NCBI GenBank assembly: GCA_021814005.1
Contig: JAKAJC010000015.1
Coordinates: forward strand, 1-34,846
Direction: 5' to 3'
Origin: Microcaldota archaeon
Lineage (GTDB): Archaea; Micrarchaeota; Micrarchaeia; Anstonellales; Anstonellaceae
DNA length: 34,846 nt
The translations under genes were made by a program, and so were the position numbers. Below the pieces are notes generated by a model. The model made no database searches. It had not been told where the DNA came from and saw only the letters and a list, made by a program, of their open reading frames with translations. The stretch's first letter is position 1. Each line of letters opens with the position of its first letter. Shown one piece after another: positions 21,627 through 34,096 of the stretch.

Positions 21627-21635
21627 GCTCTTTTT

Positions 21636-21670
21636 GTTATATCTGCAACATTTAGTATTTAATTAAAGCC
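21636..21670 (+). promoter_or_regulatory. Promoter/upstream element copy A (HCS promoter)
   Basis: GTTATATCTGCAACATTTAGTATTTAATTAAAGCC; ungapped 27/35 identity to 28580-28614. Confidence 0.65.
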
Positions 21671-21685
21671 CGCCCATCTTCTCTC

Positions 21686-22768
21686 ATGAATCAAATTCTG
21701 GTACTAGATTCCACACTGCGCGAGGGCGCGCAGGCCCCGAAAGTGCGCTTCAGCCACGAGCAGGCGCTCCAGCTTGCGGGCGGGCTCAACCATTTGGGCG
21801 TGGACTTCATCGAATACTCCCCCATTGTCAGCGAGAGAAGCGCCAAGACTGCGAAAGATTTGCTTAATGCCGGCTACAAATCCAACGTCATATTGCACGG
21901 CCGCGCCCTCCAGTCAGACATCGACCTTCTGCTCAAGCTCGACCCGCAATGGATTGCCATCTACCTCTCAACTTCACAGGTGCATCTGGAGCACAAGCTG
22001 CATATGAGCCAGGAAGACGCTCTCGGCCTGGCGCAGAAGTCAATCGAATATGCCAAAGCGCACGGGGTGAAACTGCGTTTCACATGCGAAGACGCGTCAA
22101 GAACCGGCGCCGGCGACCTGCTGCAATTTGCGCGCGCCGCATCAGATGCCGGTGCAGACCGCATTTCAATCACAGACACGGTCGGCGTCATGACGCCCTC
22201 GCGCATGTTTACTCTCGTGAGCAATGTCCGAGAAGCTCTCCCCTCAATCGGTCTTGATTTGCACTGCCACAATGATTTGGGGCTTGCATTGGCCAACTGT
22301 CTGGCCGGCATAGAAGCCGGTGCAGATTGTATCCACACTTCAGTCAACGGGGCGGGCGAGAGGGCGGGCATTCCGAAGCTTGCCGAAGTGGTGATGGCCC
22401 TGCAGGTGCTCTACGAGCAGAGGCAGGAAATGAAGGCCGACGAGCTGCCAAAACTCTCCCGCCTCTTCTCCCAAATCACCGGCCTTGCATCCGACCCGTT
22501 CAGCCCGGTGGTTGGCGAAAACGTTTTCCGCCACAAGGGAGGCACCCATCTTGGCGCGGTGCTCAAGACCGACGGCCATGCCTACGAGGCTTTCTCCCCC
22601 AATGCGCTCGGCCTCCACCGCCGCGTGGTGGTGGGCGAATACTCGGGCAAAAATGTGGTGCGCTATCTGTCAGAATCTCTGGGCCTGCAGCTGACTGATG
22701 AACAGGTTCAAAAAGCTCTCATTCGCCTCAAGGAAAAGGAGGGGGATAGATTTGAATTTGAAGTGTAA
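21686..22768 (+). CDS. hcs: Homocitrate synthase family (DRE-TIM) enzyme
   Basis: LDSTLREGAQAPKVRFS, LDLHCHNDLGLALANCLAGIEAGADCIHTSVNGAGERAGIPKLAEVVMAL, RHKGGTHLGAVL; heads lysine cluster. Confidence 0.85.
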   Translation: MNQILVLDSTLREGAQAPKVRFSHEQALQLAGGLNHLGVDFIEYSPIVSERSAKTAKDLLNAGYKSNVILHGRALQSDIDLLLKLDPQWIAIYLSTSQVHLEHKLHMSQEDALGLAQKSIEYAKAHGVKLRFTCEDASRTGAGDLLQFARAASDAGADRISITDTVGVMTPSRMFTLVSNVREALPSIGLDLHCHNDLGLALANCLAGIEAGADCIHTSVNGAGERAGIPKLAEVVMALQVLYEQRQEMKADELPKLSRLFSQITGLASDPFSPVVGENVFRHKGGTHLGAVLKTDGHAYEAFSPNALGLHRRVVVGEYSGKNVVRYLSESLGLQLTDEQVQKALIRLKEKEGDRFEFEV

Positions 22769-22793: not shown

Positions 22794-23048
22794 ATGGAAA
22801 ATACGGTCAGTGTGTTTATCGGCGCGGTCACGGATGAGAAAGTCAAGACCGCCCACATTTCCGAAGGCCTGCTCAAAATCAACGGAGTTGCCAGCATCTG
22901 GGAGCTTACTGGCTCTCTGGATTTGCTCATCCTTGTCCGCTCGCCGTCGATTCAGTCAATCAATGATGTGGTGGAAGCCGTGCGCGCGTCGCCCGGCATT
23001 TTGCAAACCACTTCATATCTTGTGCTGGACACCCATCATCGCGCATAG
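22794..23048 (+). CDS. Stand-alone Lrp/AsnC ligand-binding (RAM) domain, no HTH
   Basis: MENTVSVFIGAVTDEKVKTAHISEGLLKINGVASIWELTGSLDLLILVRSPSIQSINDVVEAVRASPGILQTTSYLVLD; GAGGTG SD. Confidence 0.85.
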   Translation: MENTVSVFIGAVTDEKVKTAHISEGLLKINGVASIWELTGSLDLLILVRSPSIQSINDVVEAVRASPGILQTTSYLVLDTHHRA

Positions 23049-23058
23049 GTGAAACAAA

Positions 23059-24327
23059 ATGCCATCCAACTCTTCCAACCCGCAGACGCTGGCGCAAAAG
23101 ATTCTTTCTGCCCACGCGTCCCGCCCCCTCTCTATCGGAGATTTGGCTGTCATCAACGTGGACTACATTCTGGCGCACGATACCACATGCGCATGGGCAA
23201 TCGAGCCCTTCCATCAAATCGCCAAGAAAGTGTTTGACCCAAAAAAGATTTTCATTTTCTTTGACCACGCCTACCCCGCCCCCAGCGTGCAGGCCGCGGG
23301 CCTGCACTCGCTCATCCGAAATTTTGCAAACGAGCAGGGGCTCAACATCATCACAGACGGCGTCTGCCATCAGGTGATGACCGAGCGCTTCACAGAGCCG
23401 AACAAGGTGCTGCTCGGAGCCGACAGCCACACGCCGACCGGAGGCGGCATCGGCGCCATGTGCATGGGCTTCGGCTCCACCGATGCTGCCGTTGCCATGG
23501 CCACAGGCAAAGTGTGGGCGCGCGTGCCTGAAACCATTCAAATCAGGCTCGAAAACAAGCTCGGCCTTGGCGTCTATCCAAAGGATGTCATTCTTTCCAT
23601 TGCCAAGGACCTCTCGGCCGAAGGGGCAAATTACAAGGTGGTGGAATTCGCAGGCAGCGCCATCGACCAGTTTGATGTTCCTTCCCGCATGACATTGTGC
23701 AACATGTGCGCAGAAATCGGAGCCAAGACAGGAATAGTGCCTGCCGACAAAAGAACAGAAGAATATCTGCGCCGCCAGAACCGCTACCGCCCGTTCGAGC
23801 AGCTGCGCTCTGATTCCGGCGCCCAGTTTGCCGATGTTTTCACATATGACATTTCCAAAGTGGAGCCCACTCTTGCCTGCCCGCCCGACATCGACCGTGA
23901 TGTTCCTGTCTCGCAGGTGGAGGGCACGCCAATCACACAAGTTTTCCTTGGCTCATGCACCAACTGCCGCATTGAAGACATGGAAGTTGCCCACCGCATT
24001 CTCAAGGGCCACAAAATTTCGCCCGGCCTCAAGTTCATTGTCACGCCCGCCTCCCGCCAGGTCTATGAGCAGGCGCTTGAGCGCGGCTATCTGGCCGAAT
24101 TCTCACGTTTGGGCGCAATCATCGCCCCGCCCGGCTGCGGCGCGTGTTTGGGCCGCCACATGGGCGTGCTTGATGACAATGATGTGTGCGTAAGCACATC
24201 CAACCGCAATTTCACGGGCCGCATGGGTTCGCCCAAGGCCAAAATCTATCTGGCTTCTCCAGCAACCGCGGCCGCGTCAGCCATAGAGGGCAAGATTGCA
24301 GACCCGCGCAAGTATTTGCGAAACTAG
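23059..24327 (+). CDS. lysT: Homoaconitase/3-isopropylmalate dehydratase-type large subunit
   Basis: LGADSHTPTGGGIGAMCMGFGSTDAAVAMATG, FLGSCTNCRIEDMEVAHRIL, PPGCGACLGRHMGVL, SNRNFTGRMGSPKAKIYLASPATAAASAIEG. Confidence 0.9.
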   Translation: MPSNSSNPQTLAQKILSAHASRPLSIGDLAVINVDYILAHDTTCAWAIEPFHQIAKKVFDPKKIFIFFDHAYPAPSVQAAGLHSLIRNFANEQGLNIITDGVCHQVMTERFTEPNKVLLGADSHTPTGGGIGAMCMGFGSTDAAVAMATGKVWARVPETIQIRLENKLGLGVYPKDVILSIAKDLSAEGANYKVVEFAGSAIDQFDVPSRMTLCNMCAEIGAKTGIVPADKRTEEYLRRQNRYRPFEQLRSDSGAQFADVFTYDISKVEPTLACPPDIDRDVPVSQVEGTPITQVFLGSCTNCRIEDMEVAHRILKGHKISPGLKFIVTPASRQVYEQALERGYLAEFSRLGAIIAPPGCGACLGRHMGVLDDNDVCVSTSNRNFTGRMGSPKAKIYLASPATAAASAIEGKIADPRKYLRN

Positions 24328-24339
24328 AAGGTGTTGCTC

Positions 24340-24954
24340 ATGGCAAAGACAACAAAAAAGAAAACAAAAACTTCAACCGCTTCGCGCCGCTCCCGCTCCA
24401 GCCATGCCTCCGCAGCCCGCTCCAGCCCTGCCTCTGCACGGGTGTCTCATCCTCACCACTCGCGTGTGTGGAAGTTCGGAGATGCCATCAACACCGACCT
24501 CATCACACCGGGCCGCTACAACATGACCATTGACCGCTCCGAGCTGGGGCGCATTGCATTTATTGAGCACAGGCCTGAATATGCAAAGAATGTCAAGCCG
24601 GGCGACCTGATGGTTGCGGGCAGAAATTTCGGCTGCGGCTCCTCGCGCGAGACTGCGGTGCATGCTCTCAAGGCCAACGGCATCTCGGCAGTGGTGGCCA
24701 AATCCTATGCGCGCATTTTCTACCGCAACGGAATCAACAACGGATTGCTCCTACTCATCGCGCCTGCCGAATTCATTGACTCCATCGAGGAGTCTGACCG
24801 CATCGAGCTCACTGACACGCAAATCATCAACCACACCAAGCACGCCTCCGCCCCGGTTTCCATTCCGCCGCTCATGAAGCGCCTGCGCGATGCGGGCGGC
24901 ATACTCCATTTCCTAAAGACGCACAGGATTGAAGAGCTGGAAGCCACGCATTAG
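24340..24954 (+). CDS. lysU: Homoaconitase/LeuD-type small subunit with basic N-terminal extension
   Basis: [62 protein letters not shown]. First ~38 residues are K/S/R/A-rich. Confidence 0.88.
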
Positions 24955-24963
24955 GTGTTTGTC

Positions 24964-26007
24964 ATGGCCAAAAAAACCAAGAGCATTCTCTACATAAACG
25001 GCGACGGCGTTGGGCCGGAGCTGATGGCCCATGCGCGCGCAGTAGTGGATGAGCTCGTTTCGGTTGAGTGGGTGGAAGGTGAAGCCGGTTACACCACCTT
25101 CCAAAAGAGCGGCACTCCCCTGCCTCAGGCCACAATAGATTCTGCCCGCGCCTGTGACGCGGTTCTTTTCTGCGCAGTCACCTCGCCGCCGAACATTCCA
25201 AATTACAAAAGCGCCATCATCGGCCTGCGGCAGGCGCTCGACCTCTATGCAAACCTGCGCCCTTTCGACTCGCTGCCCAATGTTCCAGGGCCGGCATGGG
25301 CCTCGGGCGGCATCCAGCCGCCGCCTTCCGCCTCCCCGCTTCATTTTGCCATTGTGCGCGAAAACAGCGAAGGCCTCTATTCAGGAATAGAGGAATCGGA
25401 CGGGGAGCGGGCAACCGCAACGCGTGTTATAACAAAAAAAGCCAGCGCGCGCATTGTGAAATTCGGATTCGAATACGCCCGTTCGCGTCATTTCTCAAAG
25501 GTCACGCTTGTGCACAAGGCCAATGTGCTGCGCCAGACCGACGGCCTTTTCCTCAACACCGGCCGCGAGGTGGCAGCGGCATATGCGCCGGCAATTTCCT
25601 GCGATGATGCCATCGTTGATTCCGTAGCCATGCGCCTTGTGAAGAGCCCCGCAGACTTTCAGGTCATAGTCACCACCAATTTGTTTGGCGACATTTTGTC
25701 TGACGAGGCAAGCGCGCTCATAGGCGGGCTTGGAGTCGCCCCGTCAGCCAACATCGGCGAAAAATACGCCCTGTTCGAGCCTGTGCACGGCTCGGCTCCG
25801 AAATATGCAGGGCAGGACGTGGTAAATCCGACCGGCATGCTGCGCTCGGCCGCCATGATGCTGGAGCACATCGGCCACAAGAAAGAGGCCAACCGCCTCG
25901 AGTCGGCCATTGAGCGCACTTATGGCCAGCGCATTGTCACAAAAGACGTGGGCGGCAGCGCGAAAACAAGCGAAATGGTCGCCGCAATCCGCAACAATCT
26001 TTCCTGA
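24964..26007 (+). CDS. Homoisocitrate/isopropylmalate/isocitrate dehydrogenase family; HICDH by context
   Basis: INGDGVGPELM, VRENSEGLYSGIE, VTTNLFGDILSDEASALIGGLGVAPSANIG, FEPVHGSAPKYAGQDVVNPTGM. Confidence 0.85.
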   Translation: MAKKTKSILYINGDGVGPELMAHARAVVDELVSVEWVEGEAGYTTFQKSGTPLPQATIDSARACDAVLFCAVTSPPNIPNYKSAIIGLRQALDLYANLRPFDSLPNVPGPAWASGGIQPPPSASPLHFAIVRENSEGLYSGIEESDGERATATRVITKKASARIVKFGFEYARSRHFSKVTLVHKANVLRQTDGLFLNTGREVAAAYAPAISCDDAIVDSVAMRLVKSPADFQVIVTTNLFGDILSDEASALIGGLGVAPSANIGEKYALFEPVHGSAPKYAGQDVVNPTGMLRSAAMMLEHIGHKKEANRLESAIERTYGQRIVTKDVGGSAKTSEMVAAIRNNLS

Positions 26008-26100
26008 CACTCTTTTTTCTATTTTTGTTTTTTATAAAACACTTATTTAATAACGCCGCCACGCCGCATCCAATTTACAACCTCGTAGAGGTGTTGCTTT

Positions 26101-26277
26101 ATGGATGCGACCAAAATTGAATGTCCCGATTGCGGCGGCCACAAGGAGCTGGCGCCCCAGACCGAAATAGGCCAGTTGCTCAACTGCGCAGACTGCGGCG
26201 CTCGCCTTGAAGTGCTCTCGCTCTCCCCGCTCAACATCGGCCACGCGCCCCAAATCGAGGAGGACTTCGGCGAGTAG
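26101..26277 (+). CDS. lysW: LysW-type amino-group carrier protein 1 (58 aa)
   Basis: MDATKIECPDCGGHKELAPQTEIGQLLNCADCGARLEVLSLSPLNIGHAPQIEEDFGE; two CxxC and C-terminal EEDFGE. Not in supplied ORF track. Confidence 0.92.
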   Translation: MDATKIECPDCGGHKELAPQTEIGQLLNCADCGARLEVLSLSPLNIGHAPQIEEDFGE

Positions 26278-26326
26278 GCAATAGACAAAAGGCCGGGTTC
26301 GCCCGCTTGTCTTTTCCGGTGTTTCT

Positions 26327-27193
26327 ATGACCAAGCTCGGCCTTGCCTGCACAATGTTCACTCCGGAAAATATGGCCATCAGAAAGGCGGCCGAAGACTT
26401 CGGAGTTGAGCTCACCGTCATCCGCGACGAACAGGAGCCGTTCTCGCTGTCAGGAGATCCGGCCTTCAGCAATCTGAACGTTCTGCTGGCCCGCTCCTCC
26501 TCATTCACCCGCTCGGTCTATCTGTCCAAGCTGGCCGAGTCGGCTGGCGTGTTTTCCATAAACTCCAGCTCAGCCCAAGTTCTGTGCGGCGACAAGGCGC
26601 TCACAAGCGCCTTTCTGATGCAAAAAAACATCCCCACCCCCAAAGTGCTGCTTGCCTTCTCCCCTTCTGCAGCCCTGCAGGCGGTCGAAACAATGGGCTA
26701 CCCGTGCGTAATCAAGCCGCCGGTGGGCAGCTGGGGGCGCATGGTGTGCAAAGTGAACGACAAATCGGCGGCGCACGCCGTAGTTTCGCTCAAGGATTCT
26801 TTGGGCCACTACACCGACAAGGTTTACTATGTGCAGGAATATGTCGACAAGCCGCAGCGCGACATCCGCGTTTTTGTTGTCGGCGATGAAGTCCAGTTCG
26901 CCATCTACCGCAAGATTACAAGCGGTGACGAGCATGCATTCATCACGAACCTGAATCACGGCGGCTCGGCCGAGGAATTCAAGCTGACGCAGGACATGGA
27001 GGAACTGGTGCACAAAACCACGCATGCTCTTGGCGCCGGCGTCTATGGAATCGACCTCATCGAATACCCTGACGGGCACCCGGCCGTGCTTGAAGTGAAC
27101 CACGCGCCTGAATTCTCCAAATCGGCAGGCCAGAAAATGCCGCAGGTAGCCGACGCAATCATAAAATTCGCCATCTCCCAAGCCAAGAATTAA
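26327..27193 (+). CDS. LysX/ArgX family LysW ligase 1 (ATP-grasp)
   Basis: CGDKALTSAFLMQKNIPTPK, PCVIKPPVGSWGRMVCKVND, YYVQEYVDKPQRDIRVFVVGDEV, VLEVNHAPEFSKS. Confidence 0.88.
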   Translation: MTKLGLACTMFTPENMAIRKAAEDFGVELTVIRDEQEPFSLSGDPAFSNLNVLLARSSSFTRSVYLSKLAESAGVFSINSSSAQVLCGDKALTSAFLMQKNIPTPKVLLAFSPSAALQAVETMGYPCVIKPPVGSWGRMVCKVNDKSAAHAVVSLKDSLGHYTDKVYYVQEYVDKPQRDIRVFVVGDEVQFAIYRKITSGDEHAFITNLNHGGSAEEFKLTQDMEELVHKTTHALGAGVYGIDLIEYPDGHPAVLEVNHAPEFSKSAGQKMPQVADAIIKFAISQAKN

Positions 27194-27219
27194 GATGCCC
27201 CGAAGCGGTGTGGATTGAC

Positions 27220-28134
27220 ATGGACTTTCTTCGCATTACCGACATCACGCCCGCCCAACTGCGGGAAATACTTGCCATTGCCGCCAAGCTGAAAGCCGGT
27301 TTGGCAAAAGGGAGCGCGCCCCCGCTTTTGGACAAAAAAACCCTTCTCATGCTTTTTGAGAAAAATTCCACCCGCACGCGCGTGTCGTTTGAAACCGGCA
27401 TGGCGCAGCTTGGCGGGCACGCCATTTACCTTGACTCCACGCGCTCGCAAATTTCAAGGGGCGAAACTCTCTACGACACCGGCGCGGTGCTGGGCGGCAT
27501 GGCCGACTTCATCATGGCCCGCCTCTACAAGCACGCGGATTTGGAAGAGCTTGCAAAAGGCGCATTAGTGCCTGTCATCAACGGGCTCACCGACGAGGAG
27601 CACCCGTGCCAGACATTGGCCGATTTGCTTACCATACAGGAAAAATGGGGAACTCTAAAGGGGCGCAAGCTCGCCTTTGTGGGCGACTGCGACAACAATG
27701 TGGCCCATTCTCTCATGATCGGCTGCGCCATGATGGGCATGGATGTTTCTCTCTTGGGCCCCAAGGGAGCAAAACCAAAAGACAAATACATCGAAAAAGC
27801 AAAATCATTCAAAACATCAATCACATTCTCTTCCGACCCTGCCATGGCTCTTGCCGGCGCCGATGCGGTTTACACTGACACGTGGGTTTCAATGGGCGAT
27901 GAAAAGGAAGCTGCCGCCCGCCTCAAACTTTTCTCACCCTATCAAGTCGACTCCAAACTCATGGCATATGCAAAACCTGGCGCCATCTTTATGCATGATT
28001 TGCCCGCGCATCGGGGCGAAGAGGTGTCGGCCGAAGTGATGGACGGGCCGCAGAGCGTCATCTACCAGCAGGCTCACAACCGCCTGCATGCGCAGAAGGG
28101 CCTGCTGGTTTGGCTGCTCAAAAGTTCACGTTAA
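27220..28134 (+). CDS. argF: Ornithine carbamoyltransferase (or close carbamoyltransferase)
   Basis: FEKNSTRTRVSFETGMAQLGGHAIYLDSTRSQISRGETLYDTGAVLGGMADFIMAR, DEEHPCQTLADLLTI, MHDLPAHRGEEVSAEV. Confidence 0.92.
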   Translation: MDFLRITDITPAQLREILAIAAKLKAGLAKGSAPPLLDKKTLLMLFEKNSTRTRVSFETGMAQLGGHAIYLDSTRSQISRGETLYDTGAVLGGMADFIMARLYKHADLEELAKGALVPVINGLTDEEHPCQTLADLLTIQEKWGTLKGRKLAFVGDCDNNVAHSLMIGCAMMGMDVSLLGPKGAKPKDKYIEKAKSFKTSITFSSDPAMALAGADAVYTDTWVSMGDEKEAAARLKLFSPYQVDSKLMAYAKPGAIFMHDLPAHRGEEVSAEVMDGPQSVIYQQAHNRLHAQKGLLVWLLKSSR

Positions 28135-28153
28135 TCTATGGCATGGTGATGGC

Positions 28154-28540
28154 ATGGGTTTGGAAACACATTTCAAAGGCGGCAAGGTCAGTGTCTGGAA
28201 AGAAACCTTTGCGATACTGAAGGCAAAGAAACCGGTTCAGGGCGCGCTGGCGCTCATCCAGGACAAGAAAGAGATTACGGTCATAATCGATAAAACCAAA
28301 ATCAGCCCCGAGAATATATTGGAGATAAAAGAGGGATGGAAAGCGATTACGCTCGAAATCTCCTCACCATTCGAATTGGTTGGTTTTCTGGGCATGCTCG
28401 GCTCGGCCATGGCCGAAGAGGGCGTGAGTGTCTGCGTGGTTCCAAGCTATTCCACGGACCATGTGCTGGTGCGGGAAACAGATTTGGAAAAAGCGCTTCG
28501 AAAATTCAAAAAACTCGGTTGTGGTATTCGGTATGATTGA
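28154..28540 (+). CDS. ACT_7/CASTOR-like ACT-domain protein
   Basis: EGWKAITLEISSPFELVGFLGMLGSAMAEEGVSVCVVPSYSTDHVLVRETDLEKALRKFKKLGCGI matches the ACT_7 pattern. Confidence 0.75.
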   Translation: MGLETHFKGGKVSVWKETFAILKAKKPVQGALALIQDKKEITVIIDKTKISPENILEIKEGWKAITLEISSPFELVGFLGMLGSAMAEEGVSVCVVPSYSTDHVLVRETDLEKALRKFKKLGCGIRYD

Positions 28541-28579
28541 TGCGCGCCCTGGCCGGGCGCAGTCGAGTCCGCATCAGTA

Positions 28580-28614
28580 GTTATATTTGCAACATTATGT
28601 ATTAATAATAAGCC
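28580..28614 (+). promoter_or_regulatory. Promoter/upstream element copy B (LysW2 operon promoter)
   Basis: GTTATATTTGCAACATTATGTATTAATAATAAGCC; ungapped 27/35 identity to 21636-21670. Confidence 0.65.
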
Positions 28615-28640
28615 TGCGTCGTATTTACAGGTGATATTTC

Positions 28641-28811
28641 ATGTCAGACTCAGAATGCCCCGAATGCGCCGGCCATATCGCGCCCCGCCCCAATCTTGAG
28701 GTTGGCGAAGTCCTCTCCTGCCCCGACTGCGGAGCAAAACTCGAGGTAAAATCAGTCTCGCCATTCCAGCTGGCCAAAGCGCCAAGCGTGGACGAGGACT
28801 GGGGCGAGTAG
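28641..28811 (+). CDS. lysW: LysW-type amino-group carrier protein 2 (56 aa)
   Basis: MSDSECPECAGHIAPRPNLEVGEVLSCPDCGAKLEVKSVSPFQLAKAPSVDEDWGE; canonical EDWGE end. Not in supplied ORF track. Confidence 0.95.
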   Translation: MSDSECPECAGHIAPRPNLEVGEVLSCPDCGAKLEVKSVSPFQLAKAPSVDEDWGE

Positions 28812-28834
28812 TTTAGTTTCAACAGGTCTTTCCT

Positions 28835-29683
28835 ATGCGTGCCGCAATCCTGTACACAATCCTCAACCCCGAAAACAAGCTGCTGTTGGAGGCAGCCAAG
28901 GCTCGGGGGCTTGAGCTTGAGCGCCTAGTGGACAGCGAAGTCCAGCTCGAAATCACAAACCCGCAAACCGATTTCGACGCCATTCTGCAGCGCTCCTCCT
29001 CCTATGCGCGCACCCTCTACACCTCGTTCTACTACGAGCAGGCGGGTGCGTTTGTGTGCAACCCATATGCGGCGCACCATCTTTGCGGCGACAAGTTTCT
29101 GGCATCCACTCTGCTGGCAAAGGCCGGCATTCCAACCCCGCGCACATTTGGTGCTTTCACTCCGGATTCGGCCACCAAGGCCGCTTCTTCGCTGCCTCTG
29201 CCTCTTGTAATGAAGCCGGTGTTCGGCTCGTGGGCGCGCATGGTCCACAAAATCCAGAGCCGTGAGGCGCTGGAAGCAGAGCTCGAAAACCGCGAGGAGA
29301 TGGGGCATGCGTTCCAGAAGGTGTATTACCTGCAGGAGCACATCGACAAGCCCGGCCGCGACATTCGCGCGTTTGTTGTGGGAAACGAATGCATCGGAGC
29401 CATCTACCGCAACGCAACCGAAAAGTCTGGCTGGATTACCAACACGGGAAGGGGCGGCACCGCCACCAACTGCCCGGTCACGCCCGAAATGGGGGAGCTG
29501 GCTGTTCGCGCCGCAAATGTTTTCGGTGAGGGCATCTATGGCGTTGACATGATGGAGTCCGGCAGCGGGCTCGTAGTGCACGAAGTTAACCACACTACAG
29601 AATTCCGAAACTCAATTGCCCCGACCGGAGTGGACATTCCGGGCAGGATGATTGATTATTTCATTTCAAGAGCCAAGAGGTAA
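28835..29683 (+). CDS. lysX: LysX family LysW ligase 2 (ATP-grasp)
   Basis: CGDKFLASTLLAKAGIPTPRTFGAF, LVMKPVFGSWARMVHKI, YYLQEHIDKPGRDIRAFVVGNECIGAIYR, WITNTGRGGTATNCPVT, EVNHTTEFRNSIAPTGVDIPG. Confidence 0.92.
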   Translation: MRAAILYTILNPENKLLLEAAKARGLELERLVDSEVQLEITNPQTDFDAILQRSSSYARTLYTSFYYEQAGAFVCNPYAAHHLCGDKFLASTLLAKAGIPTPRTFGAFTPDSATKAASSLPLPLVMKPVFGSWARMVHKIQSREALEAELENREEMGHAFQKVYYLQEHIDKPGRDIRAFVVGNECIGAIYRNATEKSGWITNTGRGGTATNCPVTPEMGELAVRAANVFGEGIYGVDMMESGSGLVVHEVNHTTEFRNSIAPTGVDIPGRMIDYFISRAKR

Positions 29684-29707
29684 TGAATCCGTATCAGGTG
29701 TTTTGCT

Positions 29708-30772
29708 ATGTCATTCAAGATTTCCATTGTCGGCGCGTCAGGCTACACGGGCGGCGAGCTGATGCGCTGGGCGCTTCTGCACCCGCAGATGGAAATAGCC
29801 CAGGTCACTTCAGAGCGCTTTGCCGGCACTCCGGTCACCAAGCTCAACCCGAATCTGCGCGGCTTCACAACAGCCGAATTCGTTTCTTCCAAGAGTCTTA
29901 ACACCGACGTTGACACCCTCTTTTTGTGCCTGCCGCACAAGGTGTCAGCCCCCTTTGTCAAGCAATACATCGACACGGGCGTCAAAATCATCGACCTGTC
30001 TGCAGACTTCCGCCTTCATGACGCAAAGGTGTACGAAAAGTACTACCAGCCGCATCCGTGCCCGGAATTGCTCTCCCGCGCAGTCTATGGCTTGCCGGAA
30101 CTCCATCGGGAGCAAATCAAGAAGACGCAGCTGGTGTCAGGCATCGGCTGTCTGGCCTCGTCAGTCATTCTGGCCGCAGCCCCTCTTGTCAAGGCCGGCC
30201 TTATCGACCCGTCGCACATCATCGCAGACTCGAAAATCGGCTCTTCCGCCGGCGGGGCGGCATTTGACATTTCCACCCATCATCCCGAGCGGCAGGGCAC
30301 GGTGCGCGCCTACAAGCCCACCGGGCATCGGCACGTTGCCGAAATGGAGCAGGAGCTGCATGAAGTTGCACAAGCGGCCGGAACTCCCTCAAACGTTTCG
30401 GTGGGCTTCTCGCCGCACGCGGTGGAAATGGTGCGCGGCATTCTCTCCACTGTTCATGCCCCGATGTCTCGCCCGCTCACCGATTTGGATGTGTGGAAGG
30501 CCTACCGCTCGTTCTACTCGGGCTCGCCTTTCATCCGCCTTGTAAAGGACAAGGGCACGCTCTACAGATATCCGGAGCCAAAGCCGGTGGCAGGCACCAA
30601 TTTCGCCGACATCGGCTTTGAGATTGATGCAGACCACAACCGCATTGTTGTCATGTCTGCAATCGACAACCTTGTGCGCGGCTCGGCAGGTCCGGCAATT
30701 CAGTGCTTCAACCTCATGCACAATCTTGACGAGAAGACCGGCCTGTGGGTGCCCGGCTTCCACCCCATTTAG
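29708..30772 (+). CDS. lysY: LysW-L-2-aminoadipate/glutamate phosphate reductase (LysY/ArgC)
   Basis: MSFKISIVGASGYTGGELMRWALLHPQMEI, SADFRLHD, SGIGCLASSVILAAAPL, VGFSPHAVEMVRGILSTVHA. Confidence 0.92.
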   Translation: MSFKISIVGASGYTGGELMRWALLHPQMEIAQVTSERFAGTPVTKLNPNLRGFTTAEFVSSKSLNTDVDTLFLCLPHKVSAPFVKQYIDTGVKIIDLSADFRLHDAKVYEKYYQPHPCPELLSRAVYGLPELHREQIKKTQLVSGIGCLASSVILAAAPLVKAGLIDPSHIIADSKIGSSAGGAAFDISTHHPERQGTVRAYKPTGHRHVAEMEQELHEVAQAAGTPSNVSVGFSPHAVEMVRGILSTVHAPMSRPLTDLDVWKAYRSFYSGSPFIRLVKDKGTLYRYPEPKPVAGTNFADIGFEIDADHNRIVVMSAIDNLVRGSAGPAIQCFNLMHNLDEKTGLWVPGFHPI

Positions 30773-30780
30773 GTGCAGCC

Positions 30781-31623
30781 ATGGCCCAGCTCAAACCCAT
30801 TGTTGTAATCAAGATTGGCGGCTCCACTGCCAACAGCCCCGCCGCCCTCTCCTCAATCGCGTCCGACCTTGCCAGCCTCCAGTCCAAGTACTCATTTGTC
30901 ATAGCGCACGGCGGCTCCGCCCAGACAAACGAGCTGTGCAAGCGCCTCGGCATCCAGCCCAAGTTCCACACCTCGCCAACCGGCGTGAAGTCCCGTGCAA
31001 CAGATGCGCAAATCATCCAGCTCTATGCCATGGCCTGTGGAGGGCAGGCAAATTCAAGCATTGTCTGCGCGCTTCAGTCCGGAGGCGTGAATGCAGTGGG
31101 CCTGTCGGGCTTTGACGGCAAGGTTGTCACGGCCAAGCAAAAAATATTCACGGCCGTGGACGAGAGCGGCAAGCAGAAAATCGTAAGAGACGACTACACC
31201 GGCAAAATCGAGAAGATAAATTCAGAACTGCTGCAAACCCTGCTCTCAGCAGGCTACACTCCAGTAGTTGCCGCTCTTGCAATCGGAGAAAACAGCCAGC
31301 CGCTCAACATTGACGGCGACAGGCTCATGGCCGCTCTCGCCGCCGCTCTGCATGCAGACAAGGCGATTTCGCTCACAGATGTTGACGGTTATTACAAAAA
31401 CTTCCCAAATGATTTGGTGCCCCGCCTCACGGCCTCGGAACTGCAGGCCGCGATGGAGAATGCCGGTGCCGGTCAATCATCGGGCGGCATGAAGAAGAAG
31501 CTTATGGGCTGCATAGAAGCCATCAACGGCGGCGTGCAGGAAGTGATTATCTGCAACGGAACCGCCGCCTCGCCGATTTCGGCAGCCCTGCGCGGCGCAG
31601 GAACCCACATCACCAAGAGTTGA
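30781..31623 (+). CDS. lysZ: LysW-aminoadipate/glutamate kinase (LysZ/ArgB)
   Basis: VVIKIGGSTAN, FVIAHGGSAQTNELCKRLG, NIDGDRLMAALAAALHADKAISLTDVDG, SSGGMKKKLMGCIEAINGGVQEVIICNG. Confidence 0.92.
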   Translation: MAQLKPIVVIKIGGSTANSPAALSSIASDLASLQSKYSFVIAHGGSAQTNELCKRLGIQPKFHTSPTGVKSRATDAQIIQLYAMACGGQANSSIVCALQSGGVNAVGLSGFDGKVVTAKQKIFTAVDESGKQKIVRDDYTGKIEKINSELLQTLLSAGYTPVVAALAIGENSQPLNIDGDRLMAALAAALHADKAISLTDVDGYYKNFPNDLVPRLTASELQAAMENAGAGQSSGGMKKKLMGCIEAINGGVQEVIICNGTAASPISAALRGAGTHITKS

Positions 31624-31628
31624 TTGCC

Positions 31629-32822
31629 ATGACGGAAACAAACCCAACAAACTCCTCGCTTATCGAAGCCGAGAACCGCTTCGAAATGGGCGTTTACCCA
31701 AAGCGCGGCATCTCGCTGGTGCGCGGCTCCGGCAGCCTTGTCTATGACGCGGAAGGCAAGGAATACATTGACTTCACATCGGGCATCGGCATTGCGGTGC
31801 TGGGCCACTCGCACCCCAAGCTGGCGCAAGCCATCTCGCATCAGGCCTCCACCCTTCTTACCTGCAACGAGTCGTTTGCAAACAACGAGCGGGCAAGATT
31901 TCTCACGCGTCTTGCCGCTCTCTGGCAGTCTGCCACCTCTACAAACGGCAAAATATTTCTTTGCAATTCAGGCACCGAAGCCATCGAGGCGGCCATGAAG
32001 CTTGCCCGCGCAAAGACCGGAAGAAAGAATTTTGTTGCAGCCATGAACGCATTCCACGGCCGCAGCATGGGCAGCCTCTCGCTCACCTTCAAGCCCAAGT
32101 ATCGGGAGAGATTCGAGCCCCTTATCGGCCCAATCGCCCGTGTTCGCTACAATGACATTGAAAGTTTGCGCTCGGCCGTGAACAACGAGACTGCCGCGGT
32201 GTTTCTTGAGGTCATTCAGGGCGAGGGCGGCATCAGGCCGGCCACGCAGGAATACATCAAGGCTGCCCGCGAAATCTGCACTGCGGCCGGCGCGCTTCTC
32301 ATCATAGACGAAATCCAGTCGGGCGTGGGCCGCACAGGCAAATTCTTTGCCTTCGAGCATTACGGCATCGCGCCAGATGCCTGCACTCTGGCCAAGGGGC
32401 TGGGCGGCGGCGTGCCTATCGGCGCCCTGATTGCGCGCGAGGATGTGTGCGCTTTCAAGCCGCTCGAGCACGGCTCAACATTTGGTGGCAATCCGCTTGC
32501 CTGCGCCGCCGGCAACGCGGCGCTGGATGTGTTTGAGCAGGAAAACCTGCTTGAGCAGGCCGCCACGAACGGTGAATGGCTGGCCGGCCGCCTGCGTGCT
32601 CTGACCGCCAAGCATCCGTCCATTGTGGAAATCCGCGGCAAGGGTTTGATGATTGGAATTGAATTGAAATCAGAATCAAAGCCGGTTCTGCAGGCAGCGC
32701 AGGCAAAGGGCCTGTTGGTGCTTTCAGGCGGTGATGTTGTGGTGCGCCTGCTGCCCCCGCTCAACACGCCGCGCGAAGTGTATGAGCGCGCGCTCGGCAT
32801 ACTGGATGCTGTGCTGCCCTAA
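31629..32822 (+). CDS. lysJ: LysW-aminoadipate semialdehyde/glutamate semialdehyde aminotransferase
   Basis: [96 protein letters not shown]. Confidence 0.93.
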
Positions 32823-32839
32823 ACTTTGGAGTTGTTTCG

Positions 32840-33910
32840 ATGACCTTGCCTGCACGCCACAAGTTCCTGCTCGAGCTGGTGAAAACCAAGAGCTTCTCGG
32901 GCCGTGAATCAGCCGCCGCACTGCTGTGCGCCCAGCGGATGCGCGAGCTTGGCTACAAGCATGTCAAAATAGACGAAGCCGGCAATGTTGTCGGCGGCAA
33001 TTATGATTATGTGCGCGACCCGCACCCGGACATTCTTCTCTTCTCCCATCTCGACACGGTGGGCGGCTTCTGGCTGGTGAAGGGCGACGCCAATGGCGTG
33101 TCGGGAAGAGGCGCGGTCGATGCCAAGGGCTGTCTTGCCTCTTACATCGAAGCGGGCATCAGCGCGCCTGCAGGCCTCAAGGTGGTTGTTGCCGGAGTGA
33201 CCGAAGAGGAATCTCCAACTTCAAAGGGCGCAATCAGTCTTCTCTCCCGCATCAAGCCGAGCCTCGCGCTCAACGGAGAGCCGTCCAACACAGACGGCAT
33301 CACCATTGCCTACAAGGGCCGCATTCTTGTGGAGTGCCACTCGGCCGGCTCGCCAATGCATGCAGGCGCGCACTCCGAAAATCCGATTGAGAAGACAATC
33401 GAATACTACGAGAAGCTGCGCAGCCACTTCCCCCGCCACCACACGTTCGATTCGGTCATCTTCAACGTCACCCACATCGACTACGGCCGCCGCTCCGAGC
33501 TTAATGTCATCCCCGGCAAGCTCGACTTTTTCATTGACGTGCGCATTCCGCCGTCAGCCGATATAGAAAAAATCGAGCAGGTGCTGCTTTCTTCCGCGCC
33601 GTCCGGCCTTTCAGTCTCCATCCTCGGCTCCTCATTTCCGGGCTGCGAGCTTTCCACAAACCACCCTCTGGTCCGCGCCATGGTGTCTGCGGTGCGCTCG
33701 GCCGGTCTCACGCCGCGCTATCTCAAGAAGTCAGGAATGGCGGACATGAACCTGTCCATGGCGGCAGGCGTTCCCACCATCGCCTACGGGCCGGGGGACT
33801 CCAAGCTCGACCACACAGACTCCGAATTCATTTCATGGGCAGACTATGACAAGGCAGTGTCTGTGCTGGAGAAGTTTTTGCAAAACCCTGCGCTTGCCCG
33901 AAAACCTTAA
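32840..33910 (+). CDS. lysK: LysW-lysine/ornithine hydrolase (M20 family)
   Basis: LLFSHLDTVGGFW, GAVDAKGCLASYIEAG, VAGVTEEESPTSKGA, ECHSAGSPMHAGAHSENPIE, KKSGMADMNLSMAAGVPTIAYGPGDSKLDHTDSEFIS. Confidence 0.92.
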   Translation: MTLPARHKFLLELVKTKSFSGRESAAALLCAQRMRELGYKHVKIDEAGNVVGGNYDYVRDPHPDILLFSHLDTVGGFWLVKGDANGVSGRGAVDAKGCLASYIEAGISAPAGLKVVVAGVTEEESPTSKGAISLLSRIKPSLALNGEPSNTDGITIAYKGRILVECHSAGSPMHAGAHSENPIEKTIEYYEKLRSHFPRHHTFDSVIFNVTHIDYGRRSELNVIPGKLDFFIDVRIPPSADIEKIEQVLLSSAPSGLSVSILGSSFPGCELSTNHPLVRAMVSAVRSAGLTPRYLKKSGMADMNLSMAAGVPTIAYGPGDSKLDHTDSEFISWADYDKAVSVLEKFLQNPALARKP

Positions 33911-33934: not shown

Positions 33935-34096
33935 ATGGCCCTCTCGGAATGCCCCGTCTGCCACACGCACCTCAACGCCAATCCGGCGTGGGCGCTCGAG
34001 GCGCACATAATCTGCCCCGAATGCGGCGCAGAACTTGTCGTGAGCGGGCTGAATCCTCTTGAACTTGAATCAGCAAGCGAGGAAGGAACAGAATAG
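33935..34096 (+). CDS. LysW-like protein 3 (53 aa) with non-canonical C-terminus
   Basis: MALSECPVCHTHLNANPAWALEAHIICPECGAELVVSGLNPLELESASEEGTE; CxxC pairs and terminal Glu kept, but the E-D-[WF]-G-E tail is replaced by SEEGTE. Not in supplied ORF track. Confidence 0.82.
   Translation: MALSECPVCHTHLNANPAWALEAHIICPECGAELVVSGLNPLELESASEEGTE

Follow-up and report, generated by a model that had tools for sequence, protein, structure and literature searches.

The window analysed here, a stretch of 34,846 nucleotides, is contig 12 of a Candidatus Micrarchaeota genome (G000; 1.2 Mb in 34 contigs). It carries an array of lysine and arginine biosynthesis genes in which two LysW-type carrier proteins each stand next to a ligase of their own (W1-X1 and W2-X2). 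The gene order is homocitrate synthase (HCS), a stand-alone AsnC/RAM protein, the large and small subunits of homoaconitase, homoisocitrate dehydrogenase, W1, X1, ArgF1, an ACT protein, W2, X2, LysY, LysZ, LysJ, LysK and W3. We propose that the array very probably encodes a branched amino-group carrier protein (AmCP, LysW) system, in which each branch has its own carrier and ligase and the downstream enzymes are common to both. An initial annotation, made from the sequence alone, had pointed to the two pairs; both lie where it placed them, both carriers score over the cut-off of the LysW model TIGR01206 (53.2 bits), and the motifs it quoted for the two ligases are correct. It had made no mention of W3, of the difference between GSWAR in X2 and GSWGR in X1, of the two palindromes upstream of the modules, or of a second ornithine carbamoyltransferase (OTC) homologue in the genome. 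Ligases were scored with the LysX model TIGR02144 (cut-off 275.6 bits) and OTCs with TIGR00658 (cut-off 280.85 bits). The features are as follows.

21635..21661, + strand: lysine-type palindrome, TGTTATATCTGCAACA + ...CATTTAGTATTTA, ~25 bp upstream of homocitrate synthase
21686..22768, + strand: homocitrate synthase (HCS); PF00682 and PF22617; TIGR02146 353.8 bits, under cut-off
22794-23048: stand-alone AsnC/Lrp ligand-binding (RAM) protein, between HCS and homoaconitase; present in G147 too
23059..24327, + strand: homoaconitase large subunit; TIGR01343/TIGR02086 over cut-off
24331..24954, + strand: homoaconitase small subunit; TIGR02087 over cut-off
24955..26007, + strand: homoisocitrate dehydrogenase; TIGR02088 379 bits (slightly under cut-off); AksF models
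26026..26041, + strand: arginine-type palindrome, TGTTTTTTATAAAACA, 60 bp upstream of W1
26101..26277, + strand: LysW1 / ArgW-type carrier, C-terminus EEDFGE; TIGR01206 58.5 bits, over cut-off
26327..27193, + strand: X1, ArgX-type carrier ligase (GSWGR; EFSKSAG); TIGR02144 253 bits, under the LysX cut-off
27208..28134, + strand: ArgF1, ornithine carbamoyltransferase; TIGR00658 383 bits, over cut-off
28154..28540, + strand: stand-alone ACT_7 domain protein, possible amino-acid sensor; PF13840 46 bits
28579..28605, + strand: lysine-type palindrome, AGTTATATTTGCAACA (one mismatch) + ...CATTATGTATTAA, ~35 bp upstream of W2
28641..28811, + strand: LysW2, lysine-branch carrier, C-terminus DEDWGE; TIGR01206 58.6 bits, over cut-off
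28835..29683, + strand: X2, LysX (GSWAR; WITNTGRGG; EFRNS); TIGR02144 291 bits, over cut-off
29708..30772, + strand: LysY/ArgC, sole copy found in the genome; TIGR01850 391 bits
30745..31623, + strand: LysZ/ArgB, sole copy found in the genome; NF010659 263 bits, over cut-off
31620..32822, + strand: LysJ/ArgD aminotransferase; TIGR00707 454 bits, over cut-off
32840..33910, + strand: LysK/ArgE-type deacylase; PF01546 and PF07687; 74.7% identity to the G147 copy
33935..34096, + strand: W3, LysW-like zinc ribbon without EDWGE tail; TIGR01206 35.7 bits, under cut-off

Two carriers and two ligases

W1 retains the zinc-ribbon cysteines (CPDC and CADC) and the terminal Glu, in a tail that reads EDFGE, with Phe for Trp, in all six W1 sequences recovered, whereas the 25 other carriers of the phylum end in EDWGE without exception. 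The same six carry GQ where 24 of the 25 others carry GE, and W1 forms a clade of its own (support 99/98) even in a tree from which the tail columns were left out. The ratio dN/dS is ~0.13 for both W1 and X1, near the values of W2 and X2 and indicative of purifying selection. Because of this selection, and because both pairs recur in further Micrarchaeota genomes, the pairing of each ligase with its own adjacent carrier, as first noted for the window, is not a matter of chance.

X1 belongs to the LysX/ArgX family (phmmer 6e-46 to 3vpd and 1.9e-40 to 3vpb, an ArgX) and keeps GSWGR intact. X2 has the LysX N-S/T signature together with ITNT-RGG (EFRNS, and WITNTGRGG as in Thermus), and reads GSWAR at the carrier-tail-contacting GSWGR motif, as does every ligase of the Micrarchaeota X2 group except one (the second ligase of G184). 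The idea that GSWAR evolved in X2 to separate two pairs was rejected, since genomes with one pair carry it too. Signature residues were placed after EF[KR] in the ligase alignment, because the described Asn-Thr/Gly-Phe swap fits nowhere else. The published signatures are N-S/T for LysX, N-A for Thermococcus LysX, G-F for Sulfolobus ArgX and A-L for Natrinema ArgX (PMC10433800). At this position X2 has N-S, the ArgF-linked ligases of related genomes (Xarg) have G-C or G-F, and the arginine-operon ligases of f24 (genomes G185-G187) have G-A or G-M, while X1 has K-S (EFSKS) in five of six genomes and K-A (EFSKA) in G148. Judged by these residues X1 is a new signature type, matching neither LysX nor known ArgX, and we infer its glutamate specificity from context.

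The X1 ligases form a clade with full support (100/100) and the X2 ligases one with 98/95. Once the longest outside branches had been dropped, the tree placed X1 with the ArgF-linked Xarg ligases (support 95/95). The approximately unbiased test does not reject a clade that unites X1 and Xarg with the f24 arginine-operon ligases and Sulfolobus ArgX (p-AU 0.56), the likelihood of which is slightly above that of the free tree. The origin of X1 as a duplicate or offshoot of the neighbouring X2 ligases is rejected (p-AU 0.015).

Recurrence among the Micrarchaeota

We surveyed 301 genomes of the phylum for the ligase and LysW. A LysX/RimK-type ligase was found in 51 of them (above the LysX cut-off in 21) and a LysW match in 23. 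W1-X1 is followed by ArgF in six of six genomes, from three genera of one family (G000, G147, G148 and G149; G093; G150), and this module lies beside the lysine cluster or apart from it, depending on the genome. In G093 and G150 it is on another contig than W2-X2-LysY-Z-J-K, and the stable association is therefore the linkage to ArgF and not that to the lysine genes. A contig scan with X1 alone returned two Micrarchaeota matches only; such a scan reaches close relatives only, and X1 may occur beyond the phylum.

Other arrangements coexist with this one. Genomes such as G135, G087 and G140 have one carrier and one ligase. One carrier with two ligases is seen in G113 and G146, where a ligase adjoins ArgF and no carrier of its own was found, and in G003, where the order is X-CarA-ArgF-CarB and again no own carrier was found; in G104 and G152 a recent duplicate of X2 adjoins X2. 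Two carriers are present in the W1 genomes, although no contig recovered for G148 or G149 holds the second one, and also in f24, where a carrier stands with argF, argG or argH in G185 (at a contig end), G186 and G187 (carrier and ligase in the latter two). G184 and G191 hold extra pairs with a LysX-like motif. The f24 genomes thus share with G000 a separate arginine-branch carrier, here inside an argF-argG-argH operon and with an adjoining ligase in G186 and G187. Unlike W1 and X1, however, the f24 carrier ends in EDWGE and falls in another clade, and the ligase has WRTN and EFKGA/M, an ArgX signature; for these reasons the f24 arginine carrier looks, from its sequence, like a separate origin.

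Shared enzymes and the probable link to arginine

ArgC/LysY has a single match in G000 and in each other two-ligase genome of the family (in the fragmented assembly of G149, one ligase and no LysY match were recovered), and all 14 family genomes with ArgB/LysZ have a single match to it. No two-ligase genome of family f1 showed a second copy, fragmentary duplicates being confined to single-ligase genomes, and no second ArgB or ArgC for an acetylated route was found in G000. With LysY and LysZ in single copy, two carriers must feed one enzyme set, which supports the common downstream enzymes of the initial annotation.

The SMG and H-x-LP motifs of the OTC family bind ornithine. ArgF1 scores as an OTC equivalog and has both the SMG loop and H-x-LPA (DTWVSMG, HDLPAHRG). 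The second homologue in G000 (OTC2; L051:8062-8964, contig 31), with relatives in L055, L056 and L057, has lost SMG and H[CD]LP, reading DVWAEPG (G000, G147, G149) or TSWVDIG (G093) with HPLPARRG or HPLPAHRG; ArgF1 is therefore the only OTC copy seen with canonical ornithine motifs in X1-bearing genomes. Where W1-X1 is absent, the OTC of the genome retains both SMG and CLP. A role of ArgF1 in carbamoylating a substrate other than ornithine was set aside, the motifs being kept in ArgF1 and lost in OTC2. In G093, OTC2 adjoins CarA/CarB. As for the later steps, argG adjoins argH in G147, and the two genes lie near each other in G148 and G149.

Two palindromes

Where 0.02 occurrences are expected in the window, the 18-mer TGCAACATTWWGTATTWA has two, one upstream of HCS and one upstream of W2. 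Its core has exactly two exact matches in the whole of G000, at these same two places, and is conserved in G147. A palindrome, TGTTR-N6-YAACA, overlaps this sequence; G147 has that palindrome upstream of both HCS and W2, and G113, G146 and G003 have it upstream of W2. W1 is preceded instead by TGTTT-N6-AAACA. The latter was first defined at W1 and at the ArgF-linked ligase of G113 and G146, and the sites before argG and argH in G147 and G149 came to light later, in loci outside that definition. The 16-mer TGTTTTTTATAAAACA or its complement, matched at 16/16 bases, has five occurrences in six genomes, before W1, argH (twice in G147, once in G149) and argG (G149), the two sites in G147 belonging to two argH copies that may include contamination. 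Scored by pathway, the sites divide 8 arginine/1 lysine vs 0/9 (Fisher p = 0.0004). In G093 and G150, GGACA-N3-TGTCC lies between W1 and a divergent ACT gene (L032 near 2603, L058 near 6775), replacing TGTTT-N6-AAACA.

The arginine ligase module has ACT proteins beside it in G093, G150, G113 and G003. The ACT_7/ACT_9 proteins near this module, often divergent from it (28154-28540 in the window, L032:2538-3299, L058:6154-6780, L061:9532-10134, L133:6953-7561), are candidate arginine-responsive regulators, and the AsnC/Lrp RAM protein encoded at 22794-23048 is a candidate lysine sensor.

Discussion

We consider the assignment of W1/X1 to the arginine branch and of W2/X2 to the lysine branch, with common downstream enzymes, which the initial annotation had put forward, to be well supported by the linkage to an OTC, the pathway-specific palindromes, the ligase tree and the single-copy LysY and LysZ. 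Proposed on the strength of gene content, copy number, palindromes and tree, the substrates, reactions and regulation would be as follows. X1 would ligate glutamate to the C-terminal Glu of W1, and X2 would ligate alpha-aminoadipate (AAA), made by way of homocitrate synthase, homoaconitase and homoisocitrate dehydrogenase, to W2. One LysZ/LysY/LysJ set would phosphorylate, reduce and transaminate both carrier-bound substrates, after which LysK would free ornithine from W1 and lysine from W2, the ornithine passing through the adjacent ArgF1 and then ArgG/ArgH to arginine. Since each module has an upstream region of its own, with a different palindrome, the dose of carrier and ligase could determine how much each branch sends through the common enzymes.

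Several observations weigh against this assignment. X1 lacks the residues of characterised ArgX (G-F; WR/FR before TN), having EFSKS instead, and its 253 bits lie below the LysX equivalog cut-off of 275.6. The argument that the initial annotation drew from the X1 motif is weak by itself, the ArgX signature being missing as well as that of LysX. In the ligase phylogeny that it had called for, X1 groups with the ArgF-linked ligases and not as an X2 offshoot, but the grouping with Xarg involves long branches, flagged by the program, and the test does not reject a sister relation between X1 and the X2 clade as a whole (p-AU 0.32). The arginine-type palindrome also stands once before HCS, in G113; its degenerate form was counted at 25 places across the six genomes, and many of these are not beside any recognised arginine gene. 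No ArgG turned up in G000, although the ArgH gene, which is present, has just 37 bases of contig before its start.

The fidelity of each ligase to its carrier admits of more than one answer. It is possible, if on the doubtful side, that the carriers are mutually exclusive address tags, with X1 charging only the EDFGE carrier, X2 only the EDWGE carrier and the shared enzymes taking both, and with the output of arginine and lysine set by the dose of two competing carriers; the paired differences EDFGE/EDWGE, GQ/GE and GSWGR/GSWAR could underlie such exclusivity. We give roughly even chances to a duplication that is regulatory only, in which both ligases charge both carriers and the second carrier simply allows independent expression of the arginine module. 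Sharing appears workable in this lineage, in that G113, G146 and G003 combine a LysX and an ArgF-linked ligase with the one carrier found; W1 and W2 must in any case both be accepted by the same LysZ/LysY, their modules carry different palindromes, and the LysX and ArgX of Sulfolobus work with one LysW. The fixed changes of W1 in six of six genomes, by contrast, hint at co-adaptation, as does the GSWGR/GSWAR difference at the interface, yet the presence of GSWAR in one-pair genomes means that this last did not arise to separate the pairs.

AmCPs in Streptomyces serve secondary metabolites, and X1 might likewise load an amino acid other than glutamate, or be bifunctional, with W1-X1 serving some other product, such as a secondary metabolite. 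The specificity motif of X1, unlike that of any characterised ligase, is compatible with this, and a Streptomyces plasmid carries, away from any lysine cluster, a LysW-type carrier whose neighbours are a RimK-type ligase and an argC-like gene. Against it stand the fixed linkage to a canonical OTC, the palindrome of the argG/argH type and the lack of conserved accessory tailoring genes beside the W1-X1 module, and we judge it improbable. Less credible still, to the point of being nearly dismissible, is that W1-X1 is a decaying duplicate and X2 bifunctional like the Thermococcus LysX: X1 is indeed diverged and under the LysX equivalog cut-off, and X2-type ligases stand alone in several genomes, but dN/dS of ~0.13 in X1 and W1 is close to that of X2 and W2, GSWGR is intact in X1, and the module has been kept in three genera.

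The branched system that we favour can be set beside those already characterised. Sulfolobus has LysX for AAA and ArgX for Glu with one LysW and one LysZ/Y/J/K set (PMC10433800), and so resembles G000 in leading two ligases into one enzyme set; it differs in using one carrier for both, where G000 has an adjacent carrier per ligase, and its ArgX differs from X1 in the specificity motif. Thermococcus kodakarensis, with one bifunctional LysX and one LysW (PMC10433800), shares the carrier chemistry and the common downstream enzymes but has one ligase and one carrier against two of each in G000. In the haloarchaeon Natrinema gari J7-2, ArgW/ArgX are monofunctional and lysine is made by the diaminopimelate (DAP) pathway (PMC10433800); the likeness lies in a carrier pathway for arginine whose ArgX has its own, non-Sulfolobus motif (Ala-Leu). 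The LysW-LysX cluster of Thermus and Deinococcus shares the order W2-X2-LysY-LysZ-LysJ and the NS/WITNT signature of LysX, but has GSWGR where X2 has GSWAR, and no second carrier was seen in the Deinococcus plasmid stretch examined. Among open-licence papers, to which our literature search was limited, we found no published account of two LysW in one genome and no earlier description of separate arginine and lysine carriers with a common enzyme set.

Carrier-bound synthesis of arginine and lysine is a standing example of enzyme recruitment, in which broad specificity gives way to narrow. The Micrarchaeota hold states with one ligase and one carrier, two and one, and two and two together, the arginine carrier having at least two apparent origins, and because these three states coexist the order in which ligase, carrier and downstream enzymes specialise becomes testable with a few small proteins. 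X1, with its K-S signature, is a candidate new solution to the discrimination of Glu from AAA, and the two palindromes predict one lysine and one arginine regulator in an uncultured lineage.

The array ends in W3, which keeps the zinc ribbon but has the tail SASEEGTE and, by score and tail, falls outside the LysW carriers. A role as third carrier was rejected, given the missing EDWGE tail and relatives that adjoin unrelated genes in three genomes without LysX or ArgC (G009, G101, G108); going by its sequence, W3 is probably not a pathway carrier. It is nonetheless kept near the cluster in G149 (66%) and G147 (59%). In G147 a TnpB-like gene, recognised by eye, lies in reverse orientation between ArgF and W2 (L005:10813-11946), at the position of the ACT gene in G000, and a fragment of lysine-type sequence (CGCAACATTATGTAG) is found at its edge. 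In G191, a 686-aa open frame (L131:1882-3942) matches both LysZ and LysJ, an apparent kinase-aminotransferase fusion.

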